Source of the DNA: Acidobacteriota bacterium
Lineage (GTDB): Bacteria; Acidobacteriota; Vicinamibacteria; Vicinamibacterales; 2-12-FULL-66-21
NCBI GenBank assembly: GCA_003222675.1
Contig: QHWT01000101.1
Location: 1 to 39,068 of the forward strand
Direction of reading: 5' to 3'
DNA: 39,068 bases
Part shown: one piece after another, positions 1,265 through 26,512 of the stretch
Layout: every line of letters begins with the position of its first letter
Position numbering within the stretch: position 1 is the first letter of the stretch
Program-made: the position numbers and the translations under genes
The notes under the pieces: model-generated
What the model was told of the DNA's origin: nothing
Database searches by the model: none
The model's input: only the letters and a program-made list of their open reading frames with translations

Positions 1265-1753
1265 CTATGTGGTGGGTCGGGCCGGCATTTGACTGCCGCC
1301 TTCGACCGAATCACTATTGCGTGCTTCGATGGCCTTGACGGTTTTTTGAAAGGCCGTCTCCAACACGCGCTTGCCGACCGTTCCCAGGACGAGCCCGAGC
1401 GCCCGCCCTTTGAGGTTCTTGCCGTCGCGCACTACGACGGCATCCACTTCGGTCTTTCCGTCGGGGCGGCGCGTGAAGGTGTAGGTGTGGCCGGATCTAC
1501 CACCCCACAAGTTGGAGTCAGTGGTCTTCATGACCACGCGGCCGCGATCGGACCAGTCGTAATGGAGGCGCTCCCAGACGCCGCCCGACCCTTCCGTGAC
1601 GTCCGCGTCAGAAGGGCCGCGGTGATGCACCTTGAGCTGCTCGTCGGCGCTGTTGCCAAAGATCTTCGAGCGGCCCGGTCCGAAGTCGATGAGCGCGGTG
1701 AGGAACTGCTCGGGCGTCGAAGTGGTAGTCTGGTGGAAATGAAGCGTAGACAT
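1265..1753 (-). CDS. SRPBCC (START-like) family protein
   Basis: About 162 residues from the ATG at 1753, which is preceded by AAGGAG at good spacing. A longer reading to 1825 has no such site and runs into the catalase gene. The pattern (an N-terminal strand, a helix with PEQFLTALIDFGPGR, then strands with RLHYDWSD and HTYTFTRRPDGKTEVDAVVVRDGKNLKGR) fits the polyketide-cyclase/START-like fold, a hydrophobic ligand-binding cup. There are no catalytic residues to read. It lies between the catalase-family and enoyl-CoA hydratase-like genes on the same strand, so a small-molecule binding role in the same response is an inference. Confidence 0.7.
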   Translation of the reverse strand: MSTLHFHQTTTSTPEQFLTALIDFGPGRSKIFGNSADEQLKVHHRGPSDADVTEGSGGVWERLHYDWSDRGRVVMKTTDSNLWGGRSGHTYTFTRRPDGKTEVDAVVVRDGKNLKGRALGLVLGTVGKRVLETAFQKTVKAIEARNSDSVEGGSQMPARPTT

Positions 1754-2763
1754 GTCCACTCCTTGGAGACCGTTGTCGCGGTCAGAATCGGCGGAGCGGT
1801 TGCGAGCTCTCCTCGCCGCTGCCATCCGCCAGTACGCTGGGCGAGTGACACCAGGTACGCGCCACGCCGCGCAGCAATGATTTGATCGTCAGGCGAGACC
1901 TCAATCCCGTCGGTGACCGCCGTGGGGTCGTGCATCATCTCCGGATCGCCATTCTCTACCTCAGTGATCGGGCGCAACAGTTCGAGCCGCCCGACGACCA
2001 CGCGTTCGCGACCGTTCGGCCAAATCGCCGACGGGTCATCGACCGGGTCCCCTTCCTGGGCGAGTTCCAGTTCGAGCCGAAACACGACGGGTCCACGGTG
2101 CAGGCGTCGTTCGAACTCGTCGTACAGGTAGTCGCGCGGCTGTTTCGCCAGCTCCTCTACCGGCTGGGAGGCGACGCCAGCTTCCGGTTCCCAGTGATAC
2201 CGCGCCCAGCGGCCAACGCCGGCGGCATTCACGAAGCGATAAGCATGAAGCGGGCGGTAGCTGACTTGCGCGAAGCTCACCACGGCTGGTTGCTTCTGCA
2301 TCAACAGGAGAAATCGGCCTCCATTCGGGTGCGCCGCCGCGAATGCCTTCAGCTTGGCGACATCGGGCTCGCCGGTCGCTGGATCGGCAGTGTGCGCGTC
2401 GGTAAACGCAAGGAATTCTTCCGGGGTGCGTGCGAAAAAGACCGGCAGCGTAATGCCGATCAAGTCCGTGACCGTACCGTCCGGCAGATAGAACTTCGTC
2501 GCCATGGCGACGACGTTCGAAGGCTCTTTCGTTGGGTCGCCGGACGCGCCAGAGAGCCGCGTCGTGACGGGAACCCGCGTACCCTGGAAGTGGGCCGCAC
2601 GCGAAAGCGTCTTCGCCACGGGCGTCGCGACGAACGTGCCCGCGTAGATCCGTCCGTATGCATGCGCGGCGCGAAAACCGGCAAAGATCCCGCCGGCGTC
2701 ACGATGGACGGCCGCGACCAGCGCGTCTGCCTTATAGAACTGTCCGTGATTCATTGTCGTCAC
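1528..2763 (-). CDS. Catalase-family (SrpA-like) heme protein, 3' end probably frameshifted
   Basis: The first about 330 residues fit small catalase-related proteins: HFQGTRVPVTTRLSGASGDP near residues 58-77, FYLPDGTVTDLIGITLPVFF, then the long domain and a C-terminal ARRGAYLVSLAQRTGGW containing the Tyr expected as axial heme ligand. Such proteins act as peroxidases or catalases on hydroperoxides or bind lipid-derived oxidants. The C-terminal about 80 residues after GGW are low-complexity Arg/Ser/Leu sequence and overlap the SRPBCC gene by about 226 bp in another frame. The natural end was probably near 1782, where the adjacent frame has a TGA, so a 1-nt shift near 1815-1830 is likely. It is the first intact gene after the truncated hydrolase. 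Confidence 0.85.
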   Translation of the reverse strand: MTTMNHGQFYKADALVAAVHRDAGGIFAGFRAAHAYGRIYAGTFVATPVAKTLSRAAHFQGTRVPVTTRLSGASGDPTKEPSNVVAMATKFYLPDGTVTDLIGITLPVFFARTPEEFLAFTDAHTADPATGEPDVAKLKAFAAAHPNGGRFLLLMQKQPAVVSFAQVSYRPLHAYRFVNAAGVGRWARYHWEPEAGVASQPVEELAKQPRDYLYDEFERRLHRGPVVFRLELELAQEGDPVDDPSAIWPNGRERVVVGRLELLRPITEVENGDPEMMHDPTAVTDGIEVSPDDQIIAARRGAYLVSLAQRTGGWQRRGELATAPPILTATTVSKEWTCLRFISTRLPLRRPSSSSPRSSTSDRAARRSLATAPTSSSRCITAALLTRTSRKGRAASGSASITTGPIAAAWS

Positions 2764-2793
2764 CTCGTTGCAACGTTCTGCGATCCTCTGATC

Positions 2794-3075
2794 TCAAGTG
2801 GCTCGGACAACCATCTCAGGGCGGACGACACTGCGTGGCACCTCGCCAGTCGAGCGCCCGACTCCGGCATTGTCGAACAGGAGGACTTCGCGTCCCGACG
2901 CGAGCGAATCGGTCACGGCGGGATCCCAGTTGTCCAGCGTTCCGGTGAAGTGTTGCAGACACAGCAATGGACGGCCGACGCCGTGACCAAAGCGCCGGTA
3001 GGCATAGGTCTCGTCTCCTGCCTTCAGGAACTGCGTGGGAGCGTTGATGGTGCTGGCGGTCGTCGTTGTCGACAT
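2794..3075 (-). pseudogene. Alpha/beta hydrolase, N-terminal fragment only
   Basis: From the ATG at 3075 only about 93 residues are open. They match the start of an alpha/beta hydrolase: ETYAYRRFG, LLCLQHFTGTLDNWDPAV with the first strand and oxyanion loop, and VLLFDNAGVGRSTGEVP. The frame stops at 2794, before the nucleophile elbow, and the catalase-family gene starts 30 bp later. About two-thirds of a normal about 280-residue protein is missing, including Ser, acid and His, so no hydrolase activity is expected. Upstream lies a copy of the island's 25-bp motif (3130-3154), so the promoter of this unit may still drive the downstream genes. Confidence 0.75.
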
Positions 3076-3129
3076 GTGGTCTCGCGTCGCTGTTTCCAAC
3101 GCGCTGATTGCACCATCAGTGCAAACGCA

Positions 3130-3154
3130 GGTCTATTAGACGATCGTGTCGATC
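3130..3154 (-). promoter_or_regulatory. 25-bp island motif, copy 1 (catalase unit)
   Basis: Read on the minus strand it ends in TAATAGAC, like the other copies, and matches the copy at 12801-12825 at 20 of 25 positions by hand count. It is the least canonical copy: the ATACCA block reads ACACGA here. It lies 54 bp upstream of the ATG at 3075 and points towards it. A palindrome-like CCTAAGTAGG at 3159-3168, similar to NarL/FixJ-type boxes, is next to it. Confidence 0.6.
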
Positions 3155-3202
3155 GGCACCTAAGTAGGGATTTGTGCGGTGAAAAGGGACGCGCGGCTGA
3201 GT

Positions 3203-3829
3203 TCAGTGCCTCGGCGTGGAGCGTAAGCCGAGGCGCGCAGCCATTGTCACGAGGTCAGGAAGCGAGTCGGCTTTCATTTTGCGCATCACCTGGCCTCGGT
3301 GCGCCTTCACGGTGATCTCGCTGATGCCGAGCTCGCCGCCGACCTGTTTGTTCAGCAGGCCAGCAACGACCAATGCCATGACTTCGCGTTCGCGCCCTGT
3401 CAGCGACTGATAGCAGCTCTTGATCGCCTGCATCTCCGCGCCGACACGGTGCGCGAGGCGACTCCGTTCGATGGCGCCGCGGATTGCGTCCAACAGCACA
3501 TCGTCCTTGAGCGGCTTCGTCAGGAATTCGATCGCTCCCGCCTTCATCGCCTGCACAGTCATCGGCACGTCTCCGTGGCCGGTGATGAAGATGATGGGCA
3601 TCTCTGTGCGCTCGACAAGCTGCCGCTGCACTTCGAGGCCGTTGAACCCCGGAAGCGTCACATCGAGCAGCAGACAGCAAGGGACAGCGGCGCGGGGATG
3701 AGCCAGGAAATCCTGTCCGGACGCAAATGTCTCGGGCTGCCACCCGGCGCTCTTGATCAGGAGTTCCAGCGATTCACGCACGGAGATGTCGTCGTCGACG
3801 ACGAACACGAGCGGCGTGGCGTCCGGCAT
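3203..3829 (-). CDS. FixJ/NarL-type response regulator (receiver + LuxR HTH)
   Basis: 208 residues from the ATG at 3829, chosen because AGGTG precedes it and the receiver begins at once. Receiver: acidic pocket DDD at 12-14, phospho-acceptor Asp56 in LLLDVTLPG, the T in FITGHGD, and the Lys of FLTKPL near 106. A GerE/LuxR helix-turn-helix follows (LTGREREVMALVVAG, ISEITVKAHRGQVMRKM). This layout is typical of FixJ, NodW and StyR-type activators. It is the last gene of the sensor unit, 88 bp after a stand-alone receiver. It is the only DNA-binding protein encoded in the 0.4-19.3 kb island, so it is the natural candidate to read the 25-bp motif; that link is inferred. Confidence 0.93.
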   Translation of the reverse strand: MPDATPLVFVVDDDISVRESLELLIKSAGWQPETFASGQDFLAHPRAAVPCCLLLDVTLPGFNGLEVQRQLVERTEMPIIFITGHGDVPMTVQAMKAGAIEFLTKPLKDDVLLDAIRGAIERSRLAHRVGAEMQAIKSCYQSLTGREREVMALVVAGLLNKQVGGELGISEITVKAHRGQVMRKMKADSLPDLVTMAARLGLRSTPRH

Positions 3830-3917
3830 GGTGAGCACCTGGGCGACCGAGCGGCGATCGCCCAAGGCACAGTATATGGCGCGCGTGTAACGTTTCTGGT
3901 GCCCATGGCCGGCGCAA

Positions 3918-4292
3918 CTAACCCATCCGCAGCGCGGCATTCAGCGCGTTGAGCAGAGCCGTCTCGCTGAACGGCTTGAAAAGGCACTCCACGGCGCCTT
4001 GCGCGAGGAGGCGCGAGCGGATCGCCTTGTCTCCACTGGCGGTAATGAAGACGATCGGCATCGTCTGTCGCCGATTCGCCAGTTCCCGTTGAAGATCCGG
4101 ACCCGACATGCCAGGCATCGCGATGTCGAGGATGAGGCAGGTCGTCTGATCGACAAATCCCGACGAGAGAAAAGCTTCCGCTGACGCGAAGGCCTCGGCA
4201 GCAAACCCGAATTGGCGCACCAAATCGGGCAGCGACTCGCGAACGGACTCGTCATCATCGACGATGGACACGAGCGAACGTGTGACGGTCAC
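3918..4292 (-). CDS. Stand-alone response regulator receiver domain
   Basis: 124 residues and no output domain. It shows the acidic pocket DDD (12-14), Asp56 in LILDIAMPGMSG, FITASGD, and Lys near 106 in CLFKPF. It is closely related in length and pattern to the receiver of the following FixJ-type gene. Single-domain receivers of this kind (FixJ/CheY-like) usually act in a phosphorelay, as a phosphate sink or as an allosteric partner. It lies between the kinase gene (stop at 4385) and the FixJ-type gene. A copy of the 25-bp motif is 43 bp upstream, so both regulators could be made separately from the kinase. Confidence 0.92.
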   Translation of the reverse strand: MTVTRSLVSIVDDDESVRESLPDLVRQFGFAAEAFASAEAFLSSGFVDQTTCLILDIAMPGMSGPDLQRELANRRQTMPIVFITASGDKAIRSRLLAQGAVECLFKPFSETALLNALNAALRMG

Positions 4293-4335
4293 CAGTTCAA
4301 TTCTCGCGCACAGGATGCGTCAGTGTAACGGGAAG

Positions 4336-4360
4336 CGTCTATTACACCTTGGTATGGGTT
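4336..4360 (-). promoter_or_regulatory. 25-bp island motif, copy 2 (receiver/FixJ genes)
   Basis: On the minus strand it has ATACCA, then AGGTGTA, then ATAGACG, 43 bp upstream of the receiver gene. It matches the copy at 10686-10710 at 21 of 25 positions by hand count. It lies in the 92-bp gap between the kinase stop and the receiver start, which suggests an internal, probably autoregulated, promoter for the two regulator genes. Confidence 0.7.
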
Positions 4361-4384
4361 GATGGCCGGATTTCCCGGCGCCAA

Positions 4385-7174
4385 TCAAGAGGTGTTCCTC
4401 GCGGGTATCCCATTCAGGACACCATCGACCTGTTGCGGAATTGAGAACGAGAACGTGGCTCCCGGACTGGCATCGTTCGGCTCGGCCCAAAGGCGACCGT
4501 GATGTCTCTCAATGATCGAGCGGCTGACGAACAAGCCGATGCCCATGCCGCCGCTCTTCGTGGTGTAGAACGCATCGAACAGTGAGTCCAGACTCTGCGG
4601 CGCGAGGCCCACGCCAGCATCCCGGACCGTCAAACGCACCCGACTACAATCCTCCCGTTCCGTTTTGATACCCAACTCGCGCGGTCGATCGTCCACACCG
4701 ACCATCGCGTCCGAGGCGTTCCGCAGCAGGTTCAGGATCACCTGCTGGAGTTGAACACGATCGCCACTGACGACCGGCAAATCCTCGGCGAGTTCCGAAT
4801 GCAGGACGATGCGATTCCTCTGAAGATCGGTGGACGTCACCGCGATGACCTCCCGGGTGGCCTCGTTCAAGTCCAGTGGCTCGAGCGTGAACTCCCTCTT
4901 GGTGAACAGCGCGCGCAACCGCGTAATCACATCCGAGGCACGGTTGCCATCGCGGATCGTGCGGCGCGCGGTTTCGCGCGCACCCTCGATGTTCGGGGGA
5001 GTCGCATCCAACATCCGAAGGCACGTACCGGCATTGGTAATGATGCCCGAGAGGGGTTGATTGATCTCATGGGCGATCGACGCCGTCAGCGCGCTCAAGG
5101 TCGTCATGCGTGATACATGAGCAAGCTCGGAGCGCGCCCTGTTGAGAGCCTCCGCGGCAAGCTCCCTCTCCGTCACGTCCTGAAGGGCACCGATGAACAT
5201 GGGCCTCCCGTCCATGTTTTTCATCACGTGAGCAACGGCGTGGAGATGCTTCACGTTCCCACTCGAGGTGATGATGCGGTAGGCGAGATTCACATCCATG
5301 CCCTCGATGGCGCGTTTGAACGCGGCTTCGAATACGGGCATGTCCTCGGGGTGAATAGCCTCCCGAATGGCCTGCAGTGTCACCTTCGTCGCGGGATCGA
5401 ACTCGAAGATGCGCAAGGCTTCTTCGGACCAATCGTGCGCGTCCGCCACCAAGTCGGTAATAAAACTCCCTGTCTTGCTTAGTCGTTGCGCTTCGGCGAG
5501 ACGACCGTACGCCTGGCGGAGCCCTCCCTCGGCTCGTTTTCGGTCGTCGATGTCGACGATCTGGCCGTACCAATACGCGATCCGGCCATCCGTGTCATGG
5601 AAGGGCTCGCCAACGGACTGAACCCATCGATACTGGCCGTCCGCGCGCCGGAGCTGGTAGACATCGTCGTAAGACGAGCCGGTTGTGGCCGAATGCAACC
5701 AACGTCGCACGGTCGCGTCCCGCTGATCGGGATGGACGAGTTCGAGCCACCGCCCACCTGCCAGACTCTCGGCGGTGTGGCCGAGATATTCGACAGCCCT
5801 CTGATTCAGGTAGTCGAGCTCGCCCCCAGGGGTACCGCACCAGACCAGTGCTGGAATCGTCTCGACCAGTAGGCGAAACTGACGCTCGCTCTTACGAAGC
5901 GCGTCTTCCGCGCCCTTTCGATCTTCGATGTCTGTGTTTATCCCGTACCACTTGGCGATGTTTCCTTTCTCGTCGCGCAGAGGATTCGTGCGGAAAAGAA
6001 ACCACCGATAGGCCCCGTCGTGCCGACGCAACCGTGCTTCGGCTTCCCCCGGCGCTTCGGAAGTCATGATGCGCTGCCACGCCGCGGCGAAGCCGTTCAA
6101 ATCGTCGGGATGAACGGCAACCGTCCACCCCCGGCCGCTCGCCTGTTCTGCCGAGAGGCCGATGAAGTCCAGATAGTGCTGGTTGAAAAAGTCCGCGCTT
6201 CCATCCGGGCGTGCCGACCAGGCCAGCGCCGGGATCGTGTCGGTGATCAGCTTGAGGTTCCGTTCGCTCGCGCGCAACGCGTCCTCGGCGTGCTTCCGGT
6301 CGTCGATGTCCGTGAGCAGCACGCACCACCGCGCGATCTGTCCATTCGTATCGCGGAGCGGAAAGCCGCTGTTCTGAATCCAGCGATAGACGCCATCTGT
6401 CCGCCGGAGGCGCTGCACAATTTCGTACGGAGTGCCGGACGTGATTGACCTTGTGAAGACCTCGACGACGTGAGGCAGATCCTCAGGATGAATGGTGCCG
6501 TTAGTCCCCCAGTGTCTCAGCTCGTCCAGCGTCTGACCGAAGTACTCCAGCAGCTGCCGATTGACGACTTCGACGTAGCCGGTCGCCGACAGCAGTGCGA
6601 CCAGCCCCGGGATGTTGTCCACAATCAACCGCGACTCGCGTTCGCTTTCGTTGGCACGCCGCGTTTGCTCGCCCAGCAGCCGCGCCTGCTGCAGCCCGAT
6701 GGCCGCCTCGTTCGCCGCGACATCCAGAAGGAGCCGTTCTGTTTCAGCTGGGAAATCGAGCCTTTCAGATCCCGCGGCGACGCCGCCGAGGTCACCGTCA
6801 AGTCCCAGACGGGCGGATGCAACCGAGAGTTCGACGTCGCCGATGGATACTTGTACGCGCGAGGGCCAGTTCCGCGGCGCATCGCCCATCGCCGAGTCGA
6901 TGCCGGCGCTGATTTCTCTCGCGCGCGCGGTTCCACCCCACGATTCAGACACCCGCACCATCTCAATGGAATGGCCGCCGTCAGGATCGTTCGACCGCAC
7001 GACTACGAACGCGAGGCGGAGCATCCCGACCAGTGCGTCCACCAGAGTGCCGACAATGTGACGGGGCTCGCCACCCGCCCAAAGGGCAGGCAGCGCCACG
7101 ACGCTGATCAAATCATTCAAGCAGGTGCGCAGTCGCGCCGCTTCATCAGCTGCAGATTCGAGTGACGTGTCCAC
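4385..7174 (-). CDS. Multi-PAS sensor histidine kinase
   Basis: About 929 residues. The GTG at 7174 is chosen: AGGGG lies 6 nt upstream and it follows the MEDS gene stop by one base; a GTG at 7219 would overlap that gene. An N-terminal region of about 180 residues (possibly GAF-like) is followed by four PAS/PAC units, three of them close repeats with IHPEDLP, VHPDDLN and LVHPDQRD and each ending in DI(D/E)DRK. The kinase core has SALTASIAHEINQPLSGI with the phospho-accepting His, ILNLLRNASDAM (N box), VRDAGVGLAP (G1) and GGMGIGLFVS (G2). No transmembrane segment is evident, so it is a cytoplasmic sensor. The HEINQPL signature is typical of FixL-type kinases. No heme or flavin ligand residue can be assigned with confidence. 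Confidence 0.93.
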   Translation of the reverse strand: MDTSLESAADEAARLRTCLNDLISVVALPALWAGGEPRHIVGTLVDALVGMLRLAFVVVRSNDPDGGHSIEMVRVSESWGGTARAREISAGIDSAMGDAPRNWPSRVQVSIGDVELSVASARLGLDGDLGGVAAGSERLDFPAETERLLLDVAANEAAIGLQQARLLGEQTRRANESERESRLIVDNIPGLVALLSATGYVEVVNRQLLEYFGQTLDELRHWGTNGTIHPEDLPHVVEVFTRSITSGTPYEIVQRLRRTDGVYRWIQNSGFPLRDTNGQIARWCVLLTDIDDRKHAEDALRASERNLKLITDTIPALAWSARPDGSADFFNQHYLDFIGLSAEQASGRGWTVAVHPDDLNGFAAAWQRIMTSEAPGEAEARLRRHDGAYRWFLFRTNPLRDEKGNIAKWYGINTDIEDRKGAEDALRKSERQFRLLVETIPALVWCGTPGGELDYLNQRAVEYLGHTAESLAGGRWLELVHPDQRDATVRRWLHSATTGSSYDDVYQLRRADGQYRWVQSVGEPFHDTDGRIAYWYGQIVDIDDRKRAEGGLRQAYGRLAEAQRLSKTGSFITDLVADAHDWSEEALRIFEFDPATKVTLQAIREAIHPEDMPVFEAAFKRAIEGMDVNLAYRIITSSGNVKHLHAVAHVMKNMDGRPMFIGALQDVTERELAAEALNRARSELAHVSRMTTLSALTASIAHEINQPLSGIITNAGTCLRMLDATPPNIEGARETARRTIRDGNRASDVITRLRALFTKREFTLEPLDLNEATREVIAVTSTDLQRNRIVLHSELAEDLPVVSGDRVQLQQVILNLLRNASDAMVGVDDRPRELGIKTEREDCSRVRLTVRDAGVGLAPQSLDSLFDAFYTTKSGGMGIGLFVSRSIIERHHGRLWAEPNDASPGATFSFSIPQQVDGVLNGIPARNTS

Positions 7175-7175
7175 G

Positions 7176-7829
7176 TCAAACCCCTGCCGCTCTGGACACC
7201 TGTTTCGCTCGGCGCTCACGAAGTTCAGGTAGAAGCTGCTGCGGAGGAAGGTAGAACGGGTTCCGCTGAAGGATGCCCCCGATGATCACCATCGGATGCG
7301 TACGGATGATGTCGATCACAGCGTCACCCGCGAATTGCGCTAGGTGGTAGGTACAGATTACCGCATCGTCGTGACGATGCCAGATGTCGTTGACGCGTGA
7401 CTCGAACTCGATCACGTCGTCCACGAACAATCGGCTGTCCGCTGCCCAGTCCATGCGGCAGACGATGCGGCTGCGAGGAAAACCGTGCTTCGCATTCCCG
7501 CTGGCGAGCTGCTCGAACATTTCCAGCATGCGATCCTGATCGAACTGCCCATCACGAAGGTAAGTGTCCGTGTTGCGCCGCAGCTCGAATTGGCCGCGCT
7601 CCTCGGCAGCAGCGGTGTCGATCCCCGAGGCGGCAAGGCGTTGCAAATGATCGAGGTGTTGATCTGGATGGACGACGTGGATCGCTTTGTCGCCGCAGTC
7701 GAACCCGTCCTTGATGAACGGCAGCAGCACGCGATACTCCTCGTCGTCGCTGTGGAAAAACGCGCACACGTGACGTGTGTCGCCCAGCCTGGAGCCGGCC
7801 AGAGAGATCGGTGGTGTGACGTTCGTCAT
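7176..7829 (-). CDS. MEDS (DcmR-type sensory) domain protein
   Basis: 217 residues. HVCAFFHSDDEEYRVLLPFIKDGFDCGDKAIHVV near the N-terminus, shown in part here as HVCAFF..DDEEY..LLPFIKDG, and the later DWA..S.......EFESRVN and ICTYHLAQFAGDAVIDIIRTHP are hallmarks of the MEDS domain, named for methanogen/methylotroph DcmR sensing. In other proteins it is fused to kinases or anti-sigma-factor regulators; here it is free-standing and directly precedes the PAS kinase, so it probably supplies a sensory input to it. The ligand is unknown; DcmR responds to dichloromethane. It is the first gene of the sensor unit, with a 135-bp gap upstream. Confidence 0.85.
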   Translation of the reverse strand: MTNVTPPISLAGSRLGDTRHVCAFFHSDDEEYRVLLPFIKDGFDCGDKAIHVVHPDQHLDHLQRLAASGIDTAAAEERGQFELRRNTDTYLRDGQFDQDRMLEMFEQLASGNAKHGFPRSRIVCRMDWAADSRLFVDDVIEFESRVNDIWHRHDDAVICTYHLAQFAGDAVIDIIRTHPMVIIGGILQRNPFYLPPQQLLPELRERRAKQVSRAAGV

Positions 7830-7964
7830 GGTGCACGCCCTCCCAGCCGGCGTGTCCTGAACCGGTCCCGCAGAGCGGATCGCATTGCGGCCCTCTGCGG
7901 TTGAGCGTCGTGTTTTAGGGAGTTTGTGCCGGCGGGCTTCCCGCGCGAAGCGGATCGTGGTGAG

Positions 7965-8561
7965 TCAGTCCTGTTGTGCGAAGACCTGCGCCTGCGTCTT
8001 TCCGTACGGATAAAATTTTGCCTTGTCGCCGTTCGCCCAGGCAGAGCGTTGCTCGGCACGGCTGATGTCCCAGTCCGGACGGCAGCGTTGCAGCACAGCG
8101 CGCAGATCGAGACGCAGTTCCTCCACCGTCGGTCGCCCGAAGAACCAATAGCCGTTATAGATCTTATAGATACGCAAGCCGGGCTCGAGCACCAGCGTGT
8201 GCGGAATCATCGGATTGTGATCGGGATCTGTGTACTCCGGGATGTCGAGGTCCTTCTGGAGTTTCCGACCGGGATCCGACAGAAAGATCCAGTTGGCGCC
8301 GACGCCAGACCGGAATTCGTTCGTCTCGATCAAGTTGTCGGTCGAGATCGTGACGAGGCGGCAATACCCTACTTGCATCTCCCGATGCAGCCGTACAAGT
8401 CCTTCGTGTTGTCTTCTTTCTTTTGGACAGAAACCTCCGCGGGAAAGCACCAGCACCAGCGGATCGGCTTCCTGCAATTCCGAAAGCGTGCGGTGCATGC
8501 CGCGGTGATCCGGCAGCTTGTAGTCGGGAAACACTGCGCCGGGAAGGATGTCTGGTCGCAT
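7965..8561 (-). CDS. Peroxiredoxin-like (AhpC/TSA, redoxin) protein
   Basis: 198 residues with a thioredoxin-fold peroxiredoxin pattern: PGAVFPDYKLPDHRG at the N-terminus, LVLVLSRGGFCPKERRQ holding a single candidate peroxidatic Cys45, then LVTISTDN and HTLVLEPGLRIYKIYNGYWFFGRPT. The usual TxxC motif is SRGGFC here, so it is an atypical subgroup. No resolving Cys is clear: the only other Cys are in GYCRL and LQRCRP. It starts 8 bp after the VOC gene and is the last gene of the flavoprotein-VOC-redoxin unit. Reduction of peroxides is the likely role; the electron donor could be the flavoprotein of the same operon, which is an inference. Confidence 0.85.
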   Translation of the reverse strand: MRPDILPGAVFPDYKLPDHRGMHRTLSELQEADPLVLVLSRGGFCPKERRQHEGLVRLHREMQVGYCRLVTISTDNLIETNEFRSGVGANWIFLSDPGRKLQKDLDIPEYTDPDHNPMIPHTLVLEPGLRIYKIYNGYWFFGRPTVEELRLDLRAVLQRCRPDWDISRAEQRSAWANGDKAKFYPYGKTQAQVFAQQD

Positions 8562-8569
8562 GACAGCGT

Positions 8570-9253
8570 CTATACCTGGGCGCGTTCGCGCGTACCTTCG
8601 ATGTGGCTCGTGGCGTCTCTGGCCGCGTCGTCAGCAGTCGCGCCGCGCTCGCGCGCGACGATGTAGGCGGCGTACCATCCCGACCAGTGGTGCTTCGGAG
8701 CGGTCGGCTCGTACGAGCCATGGCGCATCTCTGTCTCGCGCAGAAGCTCTGTCAGCGTCGACACGTCTAAGCTGACTCCTCGGCCGGGAAGCCGCGTCTT
8801 GATCTCTTGGAGCAGCCAGCGGTTGCCGTCTGGATCGCTGAACGTGGCAAACGAGCCGTAGCTGGCGTGACCGGGCGCAGGCCCGCTGACGCGACCATTC
8901 CTGCCGTCCGACTGGAACTGCGCGCCAGGCACGGCGGCGTGAAACACTTCGCTGACTTCCGCAGCATGAGCGGCGAGCTCGTCGCGTGCGGCTTCGATGT
9001 CGGAGACGACCAGGTACAGGCCCTCGGCCGAGCCGGGCGTAGCCGACGTTACGTGGGTCCCGAATTGGACTGAACACGGCGAGCCTGGCGGCGTGAACTG
9101 GACGATCCGGAAGTCGTTCTCGAAGCCGAAGTCGGCATCCAGCCGCCACCCGAGATTTCCGTAAAAGCGCTTCGCGCGATCGACGTCAGACACCGGAATG
9201 ACGACGACCTCGAGCTTGAGATCGTGTTCAACGTTCGACTGTGTACTGCTCAC
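8570..9253 (-). CDS. VOC (glyoxalase/bleomycin-resistance) superfamily protein
   Basis: 227 residues from a GTG at 9253 with AAGGAG 6 nt upstream. A TTG further up would need a long overlap with the preceding gene. The first about 150 residues form a VOC module: LEVVVIPVSDVDRAKRFYGNLGW, FRIVQFTPPGSPCSVQFG, GLYLVVSDIEAARDEL, and FATFSDPDGNRWLLQEI. The last about 65 residues, with HHWSGWYAAYIVARERG, are an added helical tail resembling tails of other stress-linked VOC proteins. VOC enzymes bind a metal and act on small electrophiles or antibiotics. Its ribosome-binding site lies inside the end of the flavoprotein gene (26-bp overlap), so translation is probably coupled. Confidence 0.85.
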   Translation of the reverse strand: MSSTQSNVEHDLKLEVVVIPVSDVDRAKRFYGNLGWRLDADFGFENDFRIVQFTPPGSPCSVQFGTHVTSATPGSAEGLYLVVSDIEAARDELAAHAAEVSEVFHAAVPGAQFQSDGRNGRVSGPAPGHASYGSFATFSDPDGNRWLLQEIKTRLPGRGVSLDVSTLTELLRETEMRHGSYEPTAPKHHWSGWYAAYIVARERGATADDAARDATSHIEGTRERAQV

Positions 9254-10652
9254 GGCGATCTCCTTGTCGCGCAACCTTCGCGGCAAGTCCCTCGAGGACT
9301 TGTCCAAGCACGCGGTTGAACGCGGGAAACGGGTGGATGACGTCGGCAAGTGTCTCGAGCGGAGTCGCGAGCTTTACAGCCAGCACGAGCTCGCCAAGGA
9401 TCTCGCCGGCACGCGGGGTGACGAGCGTCGCACCGATCAGCACGCCGCGCTGGCGGTCGGCGACCAGCTTCACCGCGCCGCGGTGAAAGTCGTGGATGTA
9501 GCCGCGCGCGGTCTCCGCGGGATCGGCGGTGGCGACCGCGACGTCGATGCCTCGCGCGCGTGCGGCCGCCTCAGATAGCCCGACCGATGCGACTTCCGGA
9601 TCGGTAAACGTCACGCGAGGAACCGCGGTGTGATCGGCCCGCGCATCGATGCCCCTCAGTCGCCGCGCGACGACCTGCCCGTGGTAATAAGCGAGATGAG
9701 TGAACCCACCCAGTCCCGTCACGTCGCCGGCGCCGAACACGCCGGGCCGCGCTTCGAGCGTCGATGGGTCCACCTTCAGCCAGCCGCGCTCTGTCTGTGC
9801 GAGTCCGGCTGCGCGCCACGCGTCCACGTTGGGGCGACGGCCGGTCGCCACCAGCAATCGGTCGGCGCGAACCGTTGCGCCCGACTTCAAATGGACGACC
9901 ACGCTCGAACGCTCGCGCGATGGGCCCATCATCGGCTGTTCGACGGCGACACATGGATCGCCGATCGTGAGCATGATGCCGTCCCCCTCGAGATGCGGCC
10001 GGAGCGCCGCGCCTGCCTCCGGCTCCTCGAGTCCGAGAAACGTCGGCCCGGCCTCGATCAGGGTGACCTTGCAACCGAGGCGCGCGAACGCCTGGCCGAG
10101 TTCGATGCCGATGGCGCCTCCGCCGAGGATCGCCAGCGACACCGGCAGTTCCGTCGGAATCGCCGCCTGACGGTTGGTCCAGAAATCGACGCTGTCCAGG
10201 CCAGGGATGGGCGGGATCGCTGCGGTGCTGCCATTGGCGACGACCACGGCGCGGCGCGCGAAGATCTGCTCGTTGCCAACCTCCACCGTCCGCTGATCGA
10301 TCAGTTTGCCTTCGCCTCTCACGAGCCTGGCTCCGGTCGCCTCCATCGCGGCGGCAGGACGGCTGTCGTCGAGGTTGCGCGCCATCCACAACACGCGTGT
10401 GGACACTTTCGGAAAGTCGACGGTCCAGTCCACGCGTGAGGCGGCAAGGACGCGGGCCCGATCGGCCTCGGTCAACGTTTCGCCCGAGCGAAGTAACGTC
10501 TTCGACGGCACGCAGCCCCAGTACGGGCACTCACCGCCGACCAGCTCGCGCTCGACAACGGCGAGCGTCAGGCCGCTGTCCTGAAGGCCGACGGCGATCG
10601 CCTCGCCGGCGACGCCGCCACCGAGACACACGACGTCGAATTCCTGCCGCAT
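9228..10652 (-). CDS. FAD-dependent pyridine nucleotide-disulfide oxidoreductase
   Basis: 474 residues of the glutathione reductase / lipoamide dehydrogenase / mercuric reductase family. FAD motif GGGVAGEAIA near residue 11, redox-active pair Cys42/Cys47 in GGECPYWGCVPSK, NAD(P)-binding LAILGGGAIGIELGQAFARLG, the second FAD motif GVFGAGDVTG, and a C-terminal dimerisation domain starting VPRVTFTDPEVASVGLSE. The C-terminal His-Glu of true disulfide reductases reads HPFPAFNR here, so His is present but Glu is replaced, and the disulfide substrate is uncertain. It lacks the N-terminal heavy-metal domain and the C-terminal Cys pair of MerA. It is the first gene of the flavoprotein-VOC-redoxin unit, with the 25-bp motif 33 bp upstream. 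Confidence 0.9.
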   Translation of the reverse strand: MRQEFDVVCLGGGVAGEAIAVGLQDSGLTLAVVERELVGGECPYWGCVPSKTLLRSGETLTEADRARVLAASRVDWTVDFPKVSTRVLWMARNLDDSRPAAAMEATGARLVRGEGKLIDQRTVEVGNEQIFARRAVVVANGSTAAIPPIPGLDSVDFWTNRQAAIPTELPVSLAILGGGAIGIELGQAFARLGCKVTLIEAGPTFLGLEEPEAGAALRPHLEGDGIMLTIGDPCVAVEQPMMGPSRERSSVVVHLKSGATVRADRLLVATGRRPNVDAWRAAGLAQTERGWLKVDPSTLEARPGVFGAGDVTGLGGFTHLAYYHGQVVARRLRGIDARADHTAVPRVTFTDPEVASVGLSEAAARARGIDVAVATADPAETARGYIHDFHRGAVKLVADRQRGVLIGATLVTPRAGEILGELVLAVKLATPLETLADVIHPFPAFNRVLGQVLEGLAAKVARQGDRREQYTVER

Positions 10653-10685
10653 CCCAGCACGAATAATGCGCGCGGCACGTGCGAT

Positions 10686-10710
10686 CGTCTATGAGACTTT
10701 GGTATCGGTT
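10686..10710 (-). promoter_or_regulatory. 25-bp island motif, copy 3 (flavoprotein unit)
   Basis: On the minus strand it carries ATACCA, then AAGTCTC, then ATAGACG, 33 bp before the flavoprotein start. It lies in the divergent gap of 147 bp shared with the epoxide hydrolase gene, so one site could serve both directions. It matches copy 2 at 21 of 25 positions by hand count. Confidence 0.7.
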
Positions 10711-10722
10711 CACAGGGCGATA

Positions 10723-10745
10723 CGAAGGTGTCGTCGATACCTTCG
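10723..10745. promoter_or_regulatory. Inverted repeat in the divergent promoter region
   Basis: CGAAGGT (10723-10729) and ACCTTCG (10739-10745) are perfect 7-bp arms around a 9-bp spacer. The repeat lies between the 25-bp motif and the epoxide hydrolase gene (start 10800), where a dimeric regulator site would be expected. It could also be a leader hairpin. No protein can be assigned. Confidence 0.35.
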
Positions 10746-10799
10746 TCTGATGGATCCACGGTCGCGCGTCTGATGTGATGCGTTCGAGGAGCTCACAAC

Positions 10800-12119
10800 A
10801 TGAATCGTGGCACAGGTCTTCGCGTTTCCTGTCTCGGTCTGGCTGCGGCGGCACTGCTGATCGGAGGAAAAATCATCGTGACTCACGCATCGATGGCTGG
10901 GAAGTCGGGTGGTGCCGATGTCATCAAGCCTTTCCGCGTCCATTTTCCGGACGAGGCGCTCGCAGACCTGAAGCACCGCGTCGCAGCCACGCGGTGGCCG
11001 GACAAGGAAATCGTCACCGATCAATCGCAAGGCGTGCAGCTGGCGACCGTTCAGAAGCTCGCGCGCTACTGGGCGACGGACTACAACTGGCGCAAGGTCG
11101 AGGCGAAGCTGAACGCCCTGCCGCAATTCACCACCGAGATCGATGGCGTCGACATTCACTTCATTCACGTGCGTTCGAAGCTTCCGAACGCGTTGCCGAT
11201 CATCGTCACGCACGGATGGCCCGGCTCGATCATCGAGCAGCTGAAAATCGTCGATCCGCTGACGAATCCCACGGCACATGGCGGGAGTGCATCGGACGCG
11301 TTCGATGTCGTGATTCCGTCGCTACCGGGGTACGGCTTTTCGGGCAGGCCCGCGAGCACCGGCTGGGATCCCATCCGCGTCGCACGTGCGTGGATCGTGC
11401 TGATGAAGCGCCTGGGATACACACGATATGTAGCGCAGGGCGGCGACTGGGGAAATGCCGTCACGGAACAGATGGCGCTGCTGGCACCTCCGGAATTGAT
11501 CGGCATTCACACCAACATGCCTGCCACCGTGCCGGACGACATCAACACGGCGGCTCTTGCCGGTGCGCCGGCGCCGTCCGGCCTCTCCGCCGAGGAACAG
11601 CACGCGTACGAACAGCTGGCCTATTTCTACAAGCACGGCCTGGGCTACGCCAACGAGATGGCGAATCGTCCGCAGACGCTGTACGCCATCGGAGATTCAC
11701 CGGTCGGCCTCGCCGCATGGATGCTCGATCACGACGCGCGGAGTCTGGCGCTCATCTCGCGCGTGTTCGACGGACAGTCAGAGGGCCTGACGCGGGACGA
11801 GGTCCTCGACAACGTCACGCTCTACTGGCTGACCAACACGGCGGTCTCCTCCGCCCGTTTGTATTGGGAAAGCAAGCTCGCGTTCTTCGCTCCGAAGAAC
11901 GTCCCCATCCCGGCTGCCGTGAGTGCTTTTCCAGAGGAGCTGTATCAGGCCCCGCGGAGTTGGACGCAGAAAGCCTATCCCAAGCTCATCTACTACAACA
12001 GGCTCGATAAAGGCGGGCACTTCGCGGCGTGGGAGCAACCGGAACTCTTTACGACCGAGCTCCGTGCCGCCTTCCGTTCACTCCGAGGCGCGAAGGCATC
12101 CTCCACTGGAGCGAGATGA
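10800..12119 (+). CDS. Exported epoxide hydrolase-like alpha/beta hydrolase
   Basis: 439 residues. A hydrophobic N-terminus (LRVSCLGLAAAALLIGG) indicates Sec export or anchoring. An epoxide-hydrolase N-terminal domain follows (PFRVHFPDEALADLKHRVAATRWP), then the alpha/beta fold: oxyanion loop THGWPGS near 137-143, LPGYGFSGRP, nucleophile Asp216 in QGGDWGN, and the C-terminal His of KGGHFAAWEQPELF. The lid includes YFYKHGLGYANEMANRPQTLYAIGDSPVGL, a family-typical stretch cited here in part (GLGYANEM, DSPVGLAAW). This matches microsomal-type/juvenile-hormone-type epoxide hydrolases of soil bacteria. GAGGAG precedes the ATG by 9 nt. It starts the plus-strand side of the island and ends 1 bp before the DipZ-C-like gene. 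The natural substrate is unknown; oxidised lipids or xenobiotic epoxides are possible. Confidence 0.9.
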   Translation: MNRGTGLRVSCLGLAAAALLIGGKIIVTHASMAGKSGGADVIKPFRVHFPDEALADLKHRVAATRWPDKEIVTDQSQGVQLATVQKLARYWATDYNWRKVEAKLNALPQFTTEIDGVDIHFIHVRSKLPNALPIIVTHGWPGSIIEQLKIVDPLTNPTAHGGSASDAFDVVIPSLPGYGFSGRPASTGWDPIRVARAWIVLMKRLGYTRYVAQGGDWGNAVTEQMALLAPPELIGIHTNMPATVPDDINTAALAGAPAPSGLSAEEQHAYEQLAYFYKHGLGYANEMANRPQTLYAIGDSPVGLAAWMLDHDARSLALISRVFDGQSEGLTRDEVLDNVTLYWLTNTAVSSARLYWESKLAFFAPKNVPIPAAVSAFPEELYQAPRSWTQKAYPKLIYYNRLDKGGHFAAWEQPELFTTELRAAFRSLRGAKASSTGAR

Positions 12120-12120
12120 A

Positions 12121-12766
12121 GTGGCCAATGACACGGACCACGATCGACGACGTTTTCTTAGTACGGCAGCGATGACGATCGCCGCCGCGCACGTCGCCAG
12201 ATCGGGCACCGCGCAGGCCGCTCCTCGCGAGCCGCGCGAGCTGGTGGCCCTCGGTCGTGCGGCAGAAGCAGGTGTGGCCGGCAGCAGCGAGACGCCGGTG
12301 TCGAACATCGAGGCCCGGGGTGTGGAAGCGCCGGCCGATTGGAGTGCCCTGCGATCACCGGAGAATTACGTCGGATACGAGCGAACGCAGAACTCGTCGC
12401 GTCTATTCGGCCCCCGCGCGATTGGCCCTCAATCAATGGGCGCTGGTCGGCGAGTGGACGATCGACCGTCAGGCCACCGTTCTTAGCACGCTTGACGGGC
12501 GCATGGTGTATCGCTTTCACGCGCGCGACCTTCACCTCGTGATGGGGCCGCCGCGTCAAGGAGTCTCGCTGCGCTTCCGTGTGTCGATCGACGGCCACCC
12601 GCCGGGGCCAGCTCACGGGATCGATGCGGACGAGGGCGGCAACGGCACGGTCGTCGAACAGCGCCTGTACCAACTGATCCGGCAGCCAGGACCGATCGTC
12701 GATCGACAGTTCGAGATCGAGTTCCTCGATCCTGGTGTCGAGGCGTTCGCGTTCACGTTCGGTTGA
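12121..12766 (+). pseudogene. Tat-exported DipZ C-terminal-domain-like protein, frameshifted
   Basis: A GTG at 12121, 9 nt after GGAG, opens a Tat leader (DRRRFLSTAAMTIAAAHVARS). The mature part reads DWSALRSPENYVGYERTQN, the start of the carbohydrate-binding-like domain at the C-terminus of DipZ-type thioredoxin proteins. Near 12392-12400 the match jumps by +1: the other frame continues RVYSAPARLALNQWALVGEW, then FHARDLHLVMGP, GNGTVVEQRLYQLIRQPGP, FEIEFLDPGVEAFAFTFG and a stop at 12766. A few residues expected between N and R (typically Phe-Ala-Ser-Pro-Gly-like) are missing. The thioredoxin and CcdA-like parts of DipZ are absent, so this was a stand-alone version of the domain. It follows the epoxide hydrolase with almost no gap. 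Confidence 0.75.
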
Positions 12767-12800
12767 CGCTCGCGGCACGTGAGTACACCGTGCCGGCGTC

Positions 12801-12825
12801 GATCAATACCATCGTCCAATAGACG
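12801..12825 (+). promoter_or_regulatory. 25-bp island motif, copy 4 (DUF3237/redox unit)
   Basis: On the plus strand: ATACCA, then TCGTCCA, then ATAGACG, ending 69 bp before the alpha/beta hydrolase ATG at 12895. It matches copy 3 at 18 of 25 positions and copy 1 at 20 of 25. It points towards the plus-strand genes, as the other copies point towards theirs. Confidence 0.7.
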
Positions 12826-12894
12826 CAGCTCCTCCGACTCTGTGTAATCGGACATGTAAGCAGGCCATCGAGCGTCGGCCGAAGGGTTCAACAC

Positions 12895-13932
12895 ATGTAT
12901 CAACAGATCGATGTCGATCGCCGGCGGTTCTTGAGCGCGGCTGCCGCCGCGATTGCCGCGGCGCGACTAGGCGCCGTTGGCGCAAGCGGCGCTCCATCCG
13001 CCGGCACGAACACATTTGGCGAGCTGAAGCAGATCGATGCCGGCGTCCTGAACGTTGGATATGCCGAACTCGGTCCTCCGCATGGCGGCGCAGTGGTCCT
13101 CCTTCATGGCTGGCCATACGACATTCACAGCTACGTCGATGTCGCGCCGCTGCTCGCATCGGCCGGATACCGAGTGATCGTGCCGTATTTGCGTGGCTAT
13201 GGGACGACGCGTTTTCTGTCCAGTGACGCCCTTCGAAACGGCCAGCAGTCAGCGTTGGCGGCCGACGTCGTCGCCCTGATGGATGCGCTCGCCATCGACC
13301 GGGCGATTGTCGCGGGTTTCGACTGGGGGGCGCGAACCGCGAACATTGTTGGGGCGTTGTGGCCAGACCGCTGCACAGGGATGGTGTCGGTGAGCGGCTA
13401 TCTGATCGGAAGCCGTGAGGCGAACAAGATCCCGTTGCCGCCGCAGGCAGAGCTCGAATGGTGGTACCAGTACTATTTCGCCACGGAACGCGGCCGCGCA
13501 GGCTACCAAAACTACCGCGACGAGTTTGCCAGGCTGATCTGGCGGACAGCCTCGCCACAGTGGCAATTCGACGATGCGACGTTCGATCGGACTGCGAAGG
13601 CGTTCAACAACCCGGATCACGTCACCCTGGTGATTCACAACTACCGCTGGCGGCTCGGGCTGGCCGAGGGTGAGTCGAAATACGACGAGCTCGAAACACG
13701 GCTTGCGGCGGGTCCGGTCATCACGGTCCCGACCGTTACTCTTGAAGGTGACGCCAATGGTGCGCCACATCCGGATCCGGCTTCATACGTAAAGAAGTTC
13801 GCCGGCAAGTACACGCATAGACTGCTGAAAGGCGGCATCGGTCACAACCTGCCGCAGGAAGCGCCACAGGCGTTTGCCACAGCAGTGATTGACGTCGACG
13901 CCTTGGCAGATGGAAGAAAAACCCACGGCTGA
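12895..13932 (+). CDS. Tat-exported alpha/beta hydrolase (haloalkane dehalogenase/epoxide hydrolase type)
   Basis: 345 residues. The twin-arginine leader has DRRRFLSAAAAAIAAARLG. The fold follows: LLHGWPYDIHSYVDVAPLL, VIVPYLRGYGTTRF, a nucleophile elbow GFDWGAR with Asp143 in place of Ser, a late acid candidate in LEGDANG, and His in GGIGHNLPQEAP. An Asp nucleophile with HGWP places it near epoxide hydrolases, dehalogenases and fluoroacetate dehalogenase-like enzymes, not Ser esterases. The Tat leader means it is exported folded. It starts 69 bp after the motif and is followed by the DUF3237 pair at 18 bp. The substrate is unknown. Confidence 0.9.
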   Translation: MYQQIDVDRRRFLSAAAAAIAAARLGAVGASGAPSAGTNTFGELKQIDAGVLNVGYAELGPPHGGAVVLLHGWPYDIHSYVDVAPLLASAGYRVIVPYLRGYGTTRFLSSDALRNGQQSALAADVVALMDALAIDRAIVAGFDWGARTANIVGALWPDRCTGMVSVSGYLIGSREANKIPLPPQAELEWWYQYYFATERGRAGYQNYRDEFARLIWRTASPQWQFDDATFDRTAKAFNNPDHVTLVIHNYRWRLGLAEGESKYDELETRLAAGPVITVPTVTLEGDANGAPHPDPASYVKKFAGKYTHRLLKGGIGHNLPQEAPQAFATAVIDVDALADGRKTHG

Positions 13933-13950: not shown

Positions 13951-14400
13951 ATGAACACGCGTCTGCTGATGATGATGCACGTGAACGTCGCGACAGTGCT
14001 GAACGTCGGCGCCGTGCCGCATGGCATTCGCCGGACTGCGCCGCTGCGCGGCGGTACGTTCGAGGGTCCGCGTCTTCGCGGCACTATCTTGCCGGCCAGC
14101 GCGGACTGGCAGCTCCTTCGTTCCGACGGCGTACTGGAAATGGACCTTCGCTTCACGCTCCAGACCGATGACGGCGCGCTCATCTCGATGAGCTCGTTTG
14201 GCCTGCGCCACGGGCCGCCCGACGTCATCGCGGCGCTCGGACGCGGCGAAACAGTCGACCCATCAACCTACTATTTCCGGACCATGCCGCGCTTTCAAAC
14301 AGCGCACCCCGTGTACTCGTTCCTGAATCGCCTGATCGCGGTGGCGAGCGGCGATCGTCGTCCGGACGGCCCGATCTACACGATCCACGAGGTGCTCTGA
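13951..14400 (+). CDS. DUF3237 family protein (first of two)
   Basis: 149 residues. It has the DUF3237 pattern: an N-terminal strand, GGTFEGPRLRGTILPASADWQ, VLEMDLRFTLQTDDGALI, YYFRTMPRFQTAHPVYSFLNRLIAVASGDRR and a short acidic end. The family forms a beta-barrel-like fold of unknown function and often sits near oxidoreductase or hydrolase genes. No signal peptide. It is followed by a paralogue after 1 bp, so the pair may form a heteromer. It is slightly longer than its partner because of an insertion before the YYFR segment (GPPDVIAALGRGETVDPST). Confidence 0.85.
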   Translation: MNTRLLMMMHVNVATVLNVGAVPHGIRRTAPLRGGTFEGPRLRGTILPASADWQLLRSDGVLEMDLRFTLQTDDGALISMSSFGLRHGPPDVIAALGRGETVDPSTYYFRTMPRFQTAHPVYSFLNRLIAVASGDRRPDGPIYTIHEVL

Positions 14401-14401
14401 C

Positions 14402-14815
14402 ATGAGCCTCTCGATCAATTCTCGTCCGCTGATGATCCTGCGTCTCGCGACATCAGCGACCCATGACATTGGCTCGACGCCGCAGGGCACGCTCACGATC
14501 TTCCCGGTCACCGGCGGGTCGTTCGAAGGCGAGCGCCTCCGCGGCCAGGTGCTCGCCGGCGGTGGCGACTGGGTGACCGCTCACGAGAGCGGAACGCTCA
14601 CACTCGATCTGCGGGTCACGCTCGAGACCGACGACAGCGAGCTGATTCACATGACGTTTACCGGCGTGCGCGACGATGCGAACCACTACTTCCGCACGGT
14701 GCCGCGTTTCGAGACCGCCGCGCCGAAGTACGCGTTCCTCAATCGTCTGCTTGCAATCGGCACCGGCGATATTCGCCCTGACGGCCCGGTTCATATCATC
14801 GAGGAGATTCTCTGA
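14402..14815 (+). CDS. DUF3237 family protein (second of two)
   Basis: 137 residues, paralogous to the gene before it: GGSFEGERLRGQVLAGGGDW, TLTLDLRVTLETDDSELI, HYFRTVPRFETAAPKYAFLNRLLAIGTGDIR line up throughout. It lacks the extra segment before YFR. The ATG follows the preceding stop by one base, implying coupled translation. Function unknown; a shared role in handling a small molecule with the neighbouring hydrolases is a guess from context. Confidence 0.85.
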   Translation: MSLSINSRPLMILRLATSATHDIGSTPQGTLTIFPVTGGSFEGERLRGQVLAGGGDWVTAHESGTLTLDLRVTLETDDSELIHMTFTGVRDDANHYFRTVPRFETAAPKYAFLNRLLAIGTGDIRPDGPVHIIEEIL

Positions 14816-26288: not shown

Positions 26289-26512
26289 GTGTGTGTGTCT
26301 CCTCCGATACCGGCCGCGTGACTGCAGACGAGCGTACCGGACGGGAACGAGCGTATCGTGCCTATTCCTCCGACGATTGGTCTCAAATCACGGTATGTTC
26401 GGGAGCTTTAGGCAAGAGCCGCATTCGCTGGGGTTGTACGATGCGATCCATGAAATCCACTGTGCGCCAGCCGCGGAGACGGCCGAGTGGCACTCGACGA
26501 GGGCGCCGGGAC

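Follow-up and report, generated by a model that had tools for sequence, protein, structure and literature searches.

The 39,068-nucleotide contig QHWT01000101.1 of an Acidobacteriota bacterium (GCA_003222675.1; 7.16 Mb in 152 contigs), analysed here as a whole and called the window (contig C147), carries five copies of a 25-bp box in an island of redox and detoxification genes, and a second island on contig C22 carries five more. This box is in all likelihood the operator of a dedicated two-component system that activates a detoxification and redox regulon by class II activation at sigma70 promoters. The FixJ/StyR-type response regulator encoded in the window at 3203–3829 is very probably its binder. 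The motif, its positions, the promoter geometry and the co-occurrence with the regulator were computed directly, and the initial annotation's proposal of an autoregulated regulon governed by this protein is supported by that co-occurrence and by the residues of the recognition helix.

The initial annotation had described four copies, beginning at 3130, 4336, 10686 and 12801, and all four were verified in the sequence at the coordinates and on the strands it gave (Table 1). Its hand counts of 21, 18 and 20 identical positions of 25 were exact on recount; the remaining three pairs share 16, 17 and 18. ATAGAC and GT are common to all four boxes as it had claimed, but ATACCA is not, as box 3130 reads ACACGA. 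The four copies are real, but the count was too low: a fifth box lies at 10732, and C22 holds five others. When a matrix was built from three of the sites, the fourth scored 25.4–29.1 bits and ranked directly behind those three in the window, and the best other window position reached 15.9 bits with the four-site matrix. The boxes point towards their genes from 54, 43, 33 and 69 bp (3130, 4336, 10686 and 12801, respectively), within the 30–70 bp reported earlier, when gaps are counted to the start codons that we chose (3075, 4292, 10652 and 12895). Boxes 3130, 10686 and 12801 overlap open reading frames (ORFs) of a mechanical list; the one of these that was scanned (1882–3315, plus strand) has no Pfam match.

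Searching the whole genome with the 25-base pattern gave 15 matches at no more than three mismatches, compared to 5 with the reversed pattern. At no more than two mismatches there were six, every one of them on the window or C22. These six and C22 7509 (three mismatches) were combined in a seven-site matrix, which, applied to the window and the leading 20 kb of C22, added window 10732, C22 1472 and C22 7460. A sequence-only model built from the resulting ten sites (R1) placed precisely these ten at the head of the genome-wide list (E 0.0014–0.14; next E 0.49) with 150 of 3612 first-look candidates scored. This ranking is partly by construction, yet the first four had led to the others. Random density across the genome, named beforehand as the outcome that would count against the motif, is not what was found: the ten boxes sit in two islands at the top of the ranking. 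Three candidates with three mismatches, on contigs C37, C43 and C144, scored 24.1, 20.3 and 15.8 bits with the seven-site matrix and were not counted as sites. In the C37 candidate GG replaces the invariant GT; it and the C144 candidate do not appear in the R1 list at E ≤5, again from the 150 scored, and the C43 candidate appears at E 3.87. A few scattered true sites elsewhere in the genome may nevertheless exist.

The motif is not confined to this genome. A contig search with the window regulator yielded 458 confirmed relatives, of which the best 79 loci (63–80% identical; 1.316 Mb) were kept. Their record names include Acidobacteria, Nitrospira, alpha-, beta- and gammaproteobacteria, Gemmatimonadetes, Verrucomicrobiota, Chloroflexi and others; many are metagenome bins, whose labels may be wrong. 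The ten-site matrix found 188 places of at least 20 bits in these 79 loci, whereas ten column-permuted matrices gave a mean of 0.4 (highest 1) and the reversed matrix gave 0. At 18 bits or more there were 222 places, or 216 after repeated contexts were dropped, distributed over 66 of the 79 loci. Only 31 of the 216 sites lie inside an ORF of at least 300 codons, compared to 52% of random positions. The motif is thus kept upstream of comparable units in relatives, the other check set in advance, and motif promoters also surround orthologous regulators in rhizobia and Burkholderiales.

Presence of the motif followed the identity of the regulator. Among 116 loci with a near full-length match, our two included, a site of at least 18 bits was present in 78 of the 90 with a regulator at least 60% identical to that of the window and in 1 of the 26 below 60%, where the loci are generally shorter (26 loci with 160 kb in total) and therefore had a lower chance of a site; some genomes are represented twice. 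We also scanned 297 sampled genomes from the phylum, of which 21 contain a FixJ match at E ≤1e-50. R1 matched seven at E 0.1 or better, comprising all five genomes whose best FixJ is at least 64% identical (our own, G172, G091, G083 and G108) and 2 of the other 292 (Fisher's exact test, 1e-9; 5e-8 with our own genome excluded). On the regulator tree the motif label needs 12 changes compared to a shuffled mean of 31.5, i.e. it is clustered, and most of the nearest regulators come from Acidobacteriota bins. Constraining all regulators of at least 60% identity to a single clade gave an approximately unbiased test value (p-AU) of 0.104.

A further model, R2, matched the same seven genomes at E 0.03, and its training loci appear to include two of them (G083 as L063 and G091 as L100). 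R2 gave 59 hits in twelve named genomes, and 48 of them lie no more than 50 kb from a close FixJ gene, with all exceptions in G312, G313 and G316; this count is descriptive, as nine of the twelve had contributed training sites. The independent tests are therefore those made with the own-site matrix or R1. In the three genomes outside the training set, those of L108, L114 and L118, all 10 R2 hits lie within 50 kb of the FixJ gene. In G091 the distant sites stand before a quinone-oxidoreductase-like gene and, in the case of a divergent pair, before a metallo-hydrolase-like gene; in G126 the site is followed by a thioredoxin-reductase-like gene (names assigned by eye). A -10-like hexamer is in place at these sites, so the regulon can reach beyond the island. 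The G125 site has no such hexamer. In the Variovorax genome of L076 (G313), three good boxes lie at C65:9509–15948, a contig with no FixJ match at E 1e-65.

A FixJ relative at E 1e-40 is present in 508 plasmid records, and eight plasmid loci were read with their annotation, the gene tables being incomplete. Boxes occur in five of them, from Sinorhizobium fredii, Mesorhizobium ciceri, Rhizobium indicum, R. leguminosarum WSM1325 and Caballeronia insecticola, the R. indicum and WSM1325 loci being near copies. None of the 19 boxes lies within an annotated gene, and 11 lie 58–68 bp before a start codon, followed by genes for an epoxide hydrolase, a PAS kinase or a VOC protein. No box was found in the three plasmid loci with regulators of about 54% identity (L125–L127). 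As the box has no copy there, the regulators of L125 and L127 (Mesorhizobium and Rhizobium etli plasmids) probably use a different operator; both genes lie directly behind an AAA-ATPase gene of about 6 kb.

The 216 sites give the profile CRAYACCWWNGTNYAATNGAY, or, in coordinates of the 22-mer, C2 R3 A4 Y5 A6 C7 C8 W9 W10 n11 G12 T13 n14 Y15 A16 A17 T18 n19 G20 A21 Y22. Its core is an imperfect dyad, AYAC-N4-GT (RATAC-N4-GT in the box). A -10-like hexamer peaks exactly 18 nt after the 22-mer. At that offset the mean match for our ten sites is 3.4 of 6, a value reached by none of 2000 shuffles, whose maxima average 2.05, and for the 216 sites it is 2.93 compared to a highest shuffled maximum of 1.61 (300 shuffles). 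A match of at least 4 of 6 to TATAAT occurs there in 100 of the 216 sites; the mean at other offsets is 3.9 sites. Because this peak lies 17 bp beyond it, the ATAGAC part of the box, positions 18–23 (TAGACG, TAGATT), is best read as the -35 element of a sigma70-type promoter with a 17-bp spacer. As a -35 this block is poor (TAGAYN). Assuming that transcription starts 7 nt after the -10, the dyad centre would lie near -43, agreeing with the activator site near -40 of the StyR/TodT subgroup.

The overlap of the box with the -35 would also allow the FixJ-type protein to repress by covering that element. We consider this unlikely, as the -35 is poor and the predicted centre near -43 is the classical place of a class II activator. 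In addition, StyR activates from the site STY2 at about -40 in Pseudomonas styrene catabolism, according to PMC2442086. From other sites StyR can also repress.

The 216 sites point to two promoter forms. As a group, the 117 sites with C at position 11 have a second copy, AATAC.AAGGTAT, 17 bp upstream, scoring more than 6 bits in 32% of these sites when read directly and in 44% as the reverse complement. The consensus of the 64 sites with [A/T]A[A/G] at positions 9–11 lacks an upstream copy. A PAS kinase was assigned as the next gene at 16 sites, and at least 13 of these belong to this second group. As the two groups differ in upstream copy, -10 and next gene, one form would serve mainly enzymes and the other mainly signalling genes. 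Window box 3 has the kinase-type form, yet its first gene encodes an oxidoreductase. Downstream genes were classified with a small home-made reference set, which assigned 133 of 216 and left 27 'REC' calls ambiguous. Some of the 83 unclassified genes may encode RidA-like, DJ-1/PfpI-like, cytochrome P460-like and YceI-like proteins, judging by eye.

The window regulator contains Response_reg (1.5e-25) and GerE (1.8e-20) domains, as does its C22 paralog, and its sequence has the acidic cluster (Asp12–14) and the phospho-acceptor Asp56 (LLLDVTLPG). The paralog is the only other close match in the genome (77% identity, E 4.6e-102; 97 matches including itself), the next being a lone receiver at E 8.1e-24. 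The closest solved structure is 1yio/1zn2 (E 8e-58), which we take to be StyR, followed by FixJ 5xso (E 3.8e-42). In PMC5874301, Lys175, Val176 and His179 of StyR are named as likely DNA contacts, and the consensus of StyR-like regulators is given as ATAAAC-N4-GTTTAT. In this region the alignment of the window protein with 1yio has no net shift, and of the StyR/TodT triplet (K175, V176, H179) the protein keeps Lys175 but has Ala176 and Gly179 at the other two positions. The operators differ likewise: they share the dyad form and the AC-N4-GT core alone, and the outer half-site is RATAC here and ATAAAC in StyR-type sites. The K175-A176-G179 triplet is present in 71 of 79 motif-positive regulators compared to 8 of 37 motif-negative ones, and 7 of those 8 are themselves at least 60% identical to the window protein.

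These residue data bear on whether some other regulator of the LysR, AraC or TetR type, travelling with the FixJ cassette, binds the box. LysR genes do lie near the cassette in some rhizobial plasmids, and the window has an AraC-type gene farther off at 26291–27583. However, the proteins scanned from both motif-bearing stretches included no DNA-binding regulator other than FixJ, and the motif tracks both FixJ identity, with the sharp drop at 60%, and the residues of the recognition helix. We judge another binder improbable. The palindrome GTCTA-N-TAGAC was considered as a TetR-type operator and rejected; only site 3130 has it in perfect form.

An alternative sigma factor had been put forward as a rival idea by the initial annotation, which placed ATAGAC like a -10 element. 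The motif itself would then be a promoter, for example of the extracytoplasmic function (ECF) type, with ATACCA as -35 and ATAGAC as -10, and its orientation and position 30–70 bp before start codons would suit such a role. However, only seven bases separate the two blocks whereas about 16–18 bp are required, the blocks form an imperfect dyad that often has a tandem copy upstream, and the clear sigma70-like -10 peak lies another 17 bp downstream, which places ATAGAC at the -35. Moreover, no sigma-factor gene was present among the proteins scanned in either island; weak Sigma70_r4 matches were the helix-turn-helix of FixJ, below the curated cut-off. This idea is therefore unsupported and very improbable. 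Least likely of all is that the copies are relics of a duplicated promoter without regulatory role, as shared flanks at two pairs of sites and the remnant of a FixJ gene before C22 1720 might suggest, because most other pairs have near-chance flanks but a kept box, and conservation of the box extends across phyla and follows FixJ.

The flanks of our ten sites illustrate this. Most pairs match at 1–9 of 20 positions upstream, close to chance. Box 3130 and C22 1720 share 12 of 20, and 10732 and C22 7460 share 14 of 20; these two pairs look paralogous. A 33-residue FixJ C-terminal remnant (C22 1522–1620, L016; 73% identity) lies about 100 bp before site 1720, matching the placement of the intact FixJ gene that adjoins site 3130 in the window. 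The unit was probably duplicated and then partly lost. Behind two of the C22 boxes, an alpha/beta hydrolase gene (410–1443) and a BON-domain gene (1783–2420) have apparent reading-frame changes, which appear to reflect decay or assembly error.

We infer binding, activation, phosphorylation dependence, phosphotransfer and the signal as parts of the following model. The multi-PAS histidine kinase, with the lone receiver, would phosphorylate the FixJ/StyR-type regulator and its C22 paralog, and the phosphorylated dimer would bind the imperfect dyad RATAC-N4-GT. Centred about 43 bp before the predicted start and abutting the poor -35, the bound regulator would recruit ordinary sigma70 RNA polymerase to a promoter with its -10 at 17 bp after the -35. 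Enzyme promoters often have the second, weaker dyad 17 bp upstream, whereas kinase-type promoters, with a single box of slightly different sequence, would provide autoregulation of the kinase and receiver–FixJ units. The predicted targets are epoxide and alpha/beta hydrolases, SDRs, glyoxalase-like proteins, and quinone and pyridine-nucleotide oxidoreductases, a list that suggests electrophiles or redox stress as the signal. The lone receiver, which both islands encode, as do six of the eight plasmid loci read, and which carries the Asp of LILDIAMPG, may act as a phosphate sink or relay.

Several observations weigh against this assignment of box and regulator. The [A/T]A[A/G] (kinase-type) sites have a weaker -10 (2.02 compared to 3.40 of 6), and boxes 4336 and C22 7509 have none at the expected place. 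The seven-site matrix scores the C37 candidate (24.1) above three sites that we counted, C22 1472 (23.6), 10732 (18.6) and C22 7460 (16.4), which were retained because of their island position and -10. Twelve of the 90 loci with an ortholog of at least 60% identity have no site at 18 bits, some of them being short contigs; in the phylum scan G102 (FixJ 61%) was unmatched, and G125 and G126 were matched without a FixJ match at E 1e-50. Motif-positive regulators do not form a single clade (the 12 label changes), and LysR, TetR, MarR or AraC regulators are also present in some loci. In addition, the link between residue 176 and motif position 11 is suggestive only: loci with Thr176 (L053, L103, L113 and L118) have T at position 11 in 8 of 11 sites compared to 1 of 205 elsewhere, but they come from one group of related Acidobacteria, the sites are partly orthologous, and the link was noticed after the fact.

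Among known systems StyR is the closest, and it, TodT, TmoT and TutB are likewise FixJ/NarL-type regulators with a PAS kinase. The system described here differs in combining a kinase that lacks a receiver with a separate receiver protein, and in that its targets do not form a single aromatic catabolic operon. The rhizobial FixL/FixJ pair has the same receiver and GerE architecture, but FixJ is less similar than 1yio and has other targets and another gene neighbourhood. NodW of the Bradyrhizobium NodW/NodV system is also a kinase-dependent FixJ-type regulator, described through nod boxes and the genistein response in PMC5793154. A further Rhizobium etli relative, which carries the annotation nodW, shows 54% identity; the three loci read with relatives of about 54% identity (L125–L127) are those without a box.

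Common to the two islands are genes for a PAS histidine kinase, a lone receiver and a FixJ-type regulator. The C22 island also encodes alpha/beta hydrolases, BON and metallo-beta-lactamase fold proteins, an SDR and two DUF3237 proteins; the window genes are listed in Table 1. As no FixJ was found at E 1e-60 in 11 other genomes of the same family, the islands look accessory in this genome, which together with the plasmid cases and the spread across phyla suggests horizontal transfer.

Table 1. Boxes and genes of the window, with the boxes of contig C22
Feature	Position	Strand	Promoter elements or basis	Genes faced or remarks
Ten sites of this genome	window 3130, 4336, 10686, 10732, 12801; C22 1472, 1720, 5430, 7460, 7509
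Box 1, enzyme type	3130–3154	-	-35-like TAGACC 3130–3135; -10-like TGCAAT 3107–3112; 17-bp spacer	alpha/beta-hydrolase-like N-terminal fragment 2794–3075, then catalase-like gene
Box 2, kinase type	4336–4360	-	no -10 at 17 bp	receiver and FixJ unit
Box 3, kinase type	10686–10710	-	-10-like CATTAT 10663–10668	gene run from pyridine nucleotide oxidoreductase (9228–10652) through histidine kinase
Box 5	10732–10756	+	-10-like TGTGAT 10774–10779	divergent from box 3; epoxide hydrolase gene at 10800
Box 4, enzyme type	12801–12825	+	-35-like TAGACG 12820–12825; -10-like TGTAAT 12843–12848	alpha/beta hydrolase 12895–13932 and genes behind
Catalase-like gene	1528–2763	-	Pfam	likely downstream of box 1
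FixJ/StyR-type response regulator (receiver and GerE)	3203–3829	-	Pfam; paralog; closest solved structure; recognition residues	proposed binder
Single-domain (lone) receiver	3918–4292	-	Pfam	signalling cassette member
Multi-PAS histidine kinase	4385–7174	-	Pfam	start codon uncertain
MEDS-domain protein	7176–7829	-	Pfam	probable box 3 target unit
AhpC/TSA-like protein	7965–8561	-	Pfam	probable box 3 target unit
Glyoxalase/VOC-like protein	8570–9253	-	Pfam	probable box 3 target unit
Pyridine nucleotide-disulphide oxidoreductase	9228–10652	-	Pfam	first gene behind box 3
Epoxide hydrolase (EHN) family protein	10800–12119	+	Pfam	first gene behind box 5
Alpha/beta hydrolase	12895–13932	+	Pfam	first gene behind box 4
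Two DUF3237 genes	13951–14400, 14402–14815	+		after alpha/beta hydrolase

FixJ/StyR-type regulons are known as a kind, and the present one is set apart by its own operator code. More broadly, we give an even chance to the view that the kinase, lone receiver and FixJ-type regulator form a portable, self-contained module with its own code (K-A-G, RATAC-N4-GT) and promoters of constant geometry in Acidobacteria, rhizobial plasmids, Burkholderiales and other soil lineages, in which residue 176 would read motif position 11 and a shared set of epoxide and alpha/beta hydrolases and redox enzymes would be controlled in response to an electrophile, possibly plant- or soil-derived. In the literature searched, from which subscription papers were mostly missing, we found no prior description of the box or regulon; the motif strings gave one match, in a virus paper, which we judged a chance string match. 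Operator, promoter geometry and regulator are thereby specified for a detoxification-type regulon that occurs in many bacteria of soil and plants, rhizobial plasmids included, where the records read label the genes no further than 'response regulator' and 'epoxide hydrolase'. For a genome that carries the regulator, the regulon can now be predicted from sequence, and Ala or Thr at residue 176 against motif position 11 offers a test case for the choice of DNA by FixJ-type helices.

Two observations concern genes behind individual boxes. The first gene after box 1 encodes only an N-terminal fragment resembling an alpha/beta hydrolase (named by eye; no Pfam match). Behind the box 4 genes, 14857–16539 encodes a cNMP-binding domain fused to a thioredoxin-reductase-like (TrxB-like) domain, and a TrxB-like gene likewise lies behind the lone box of G126 (L162).

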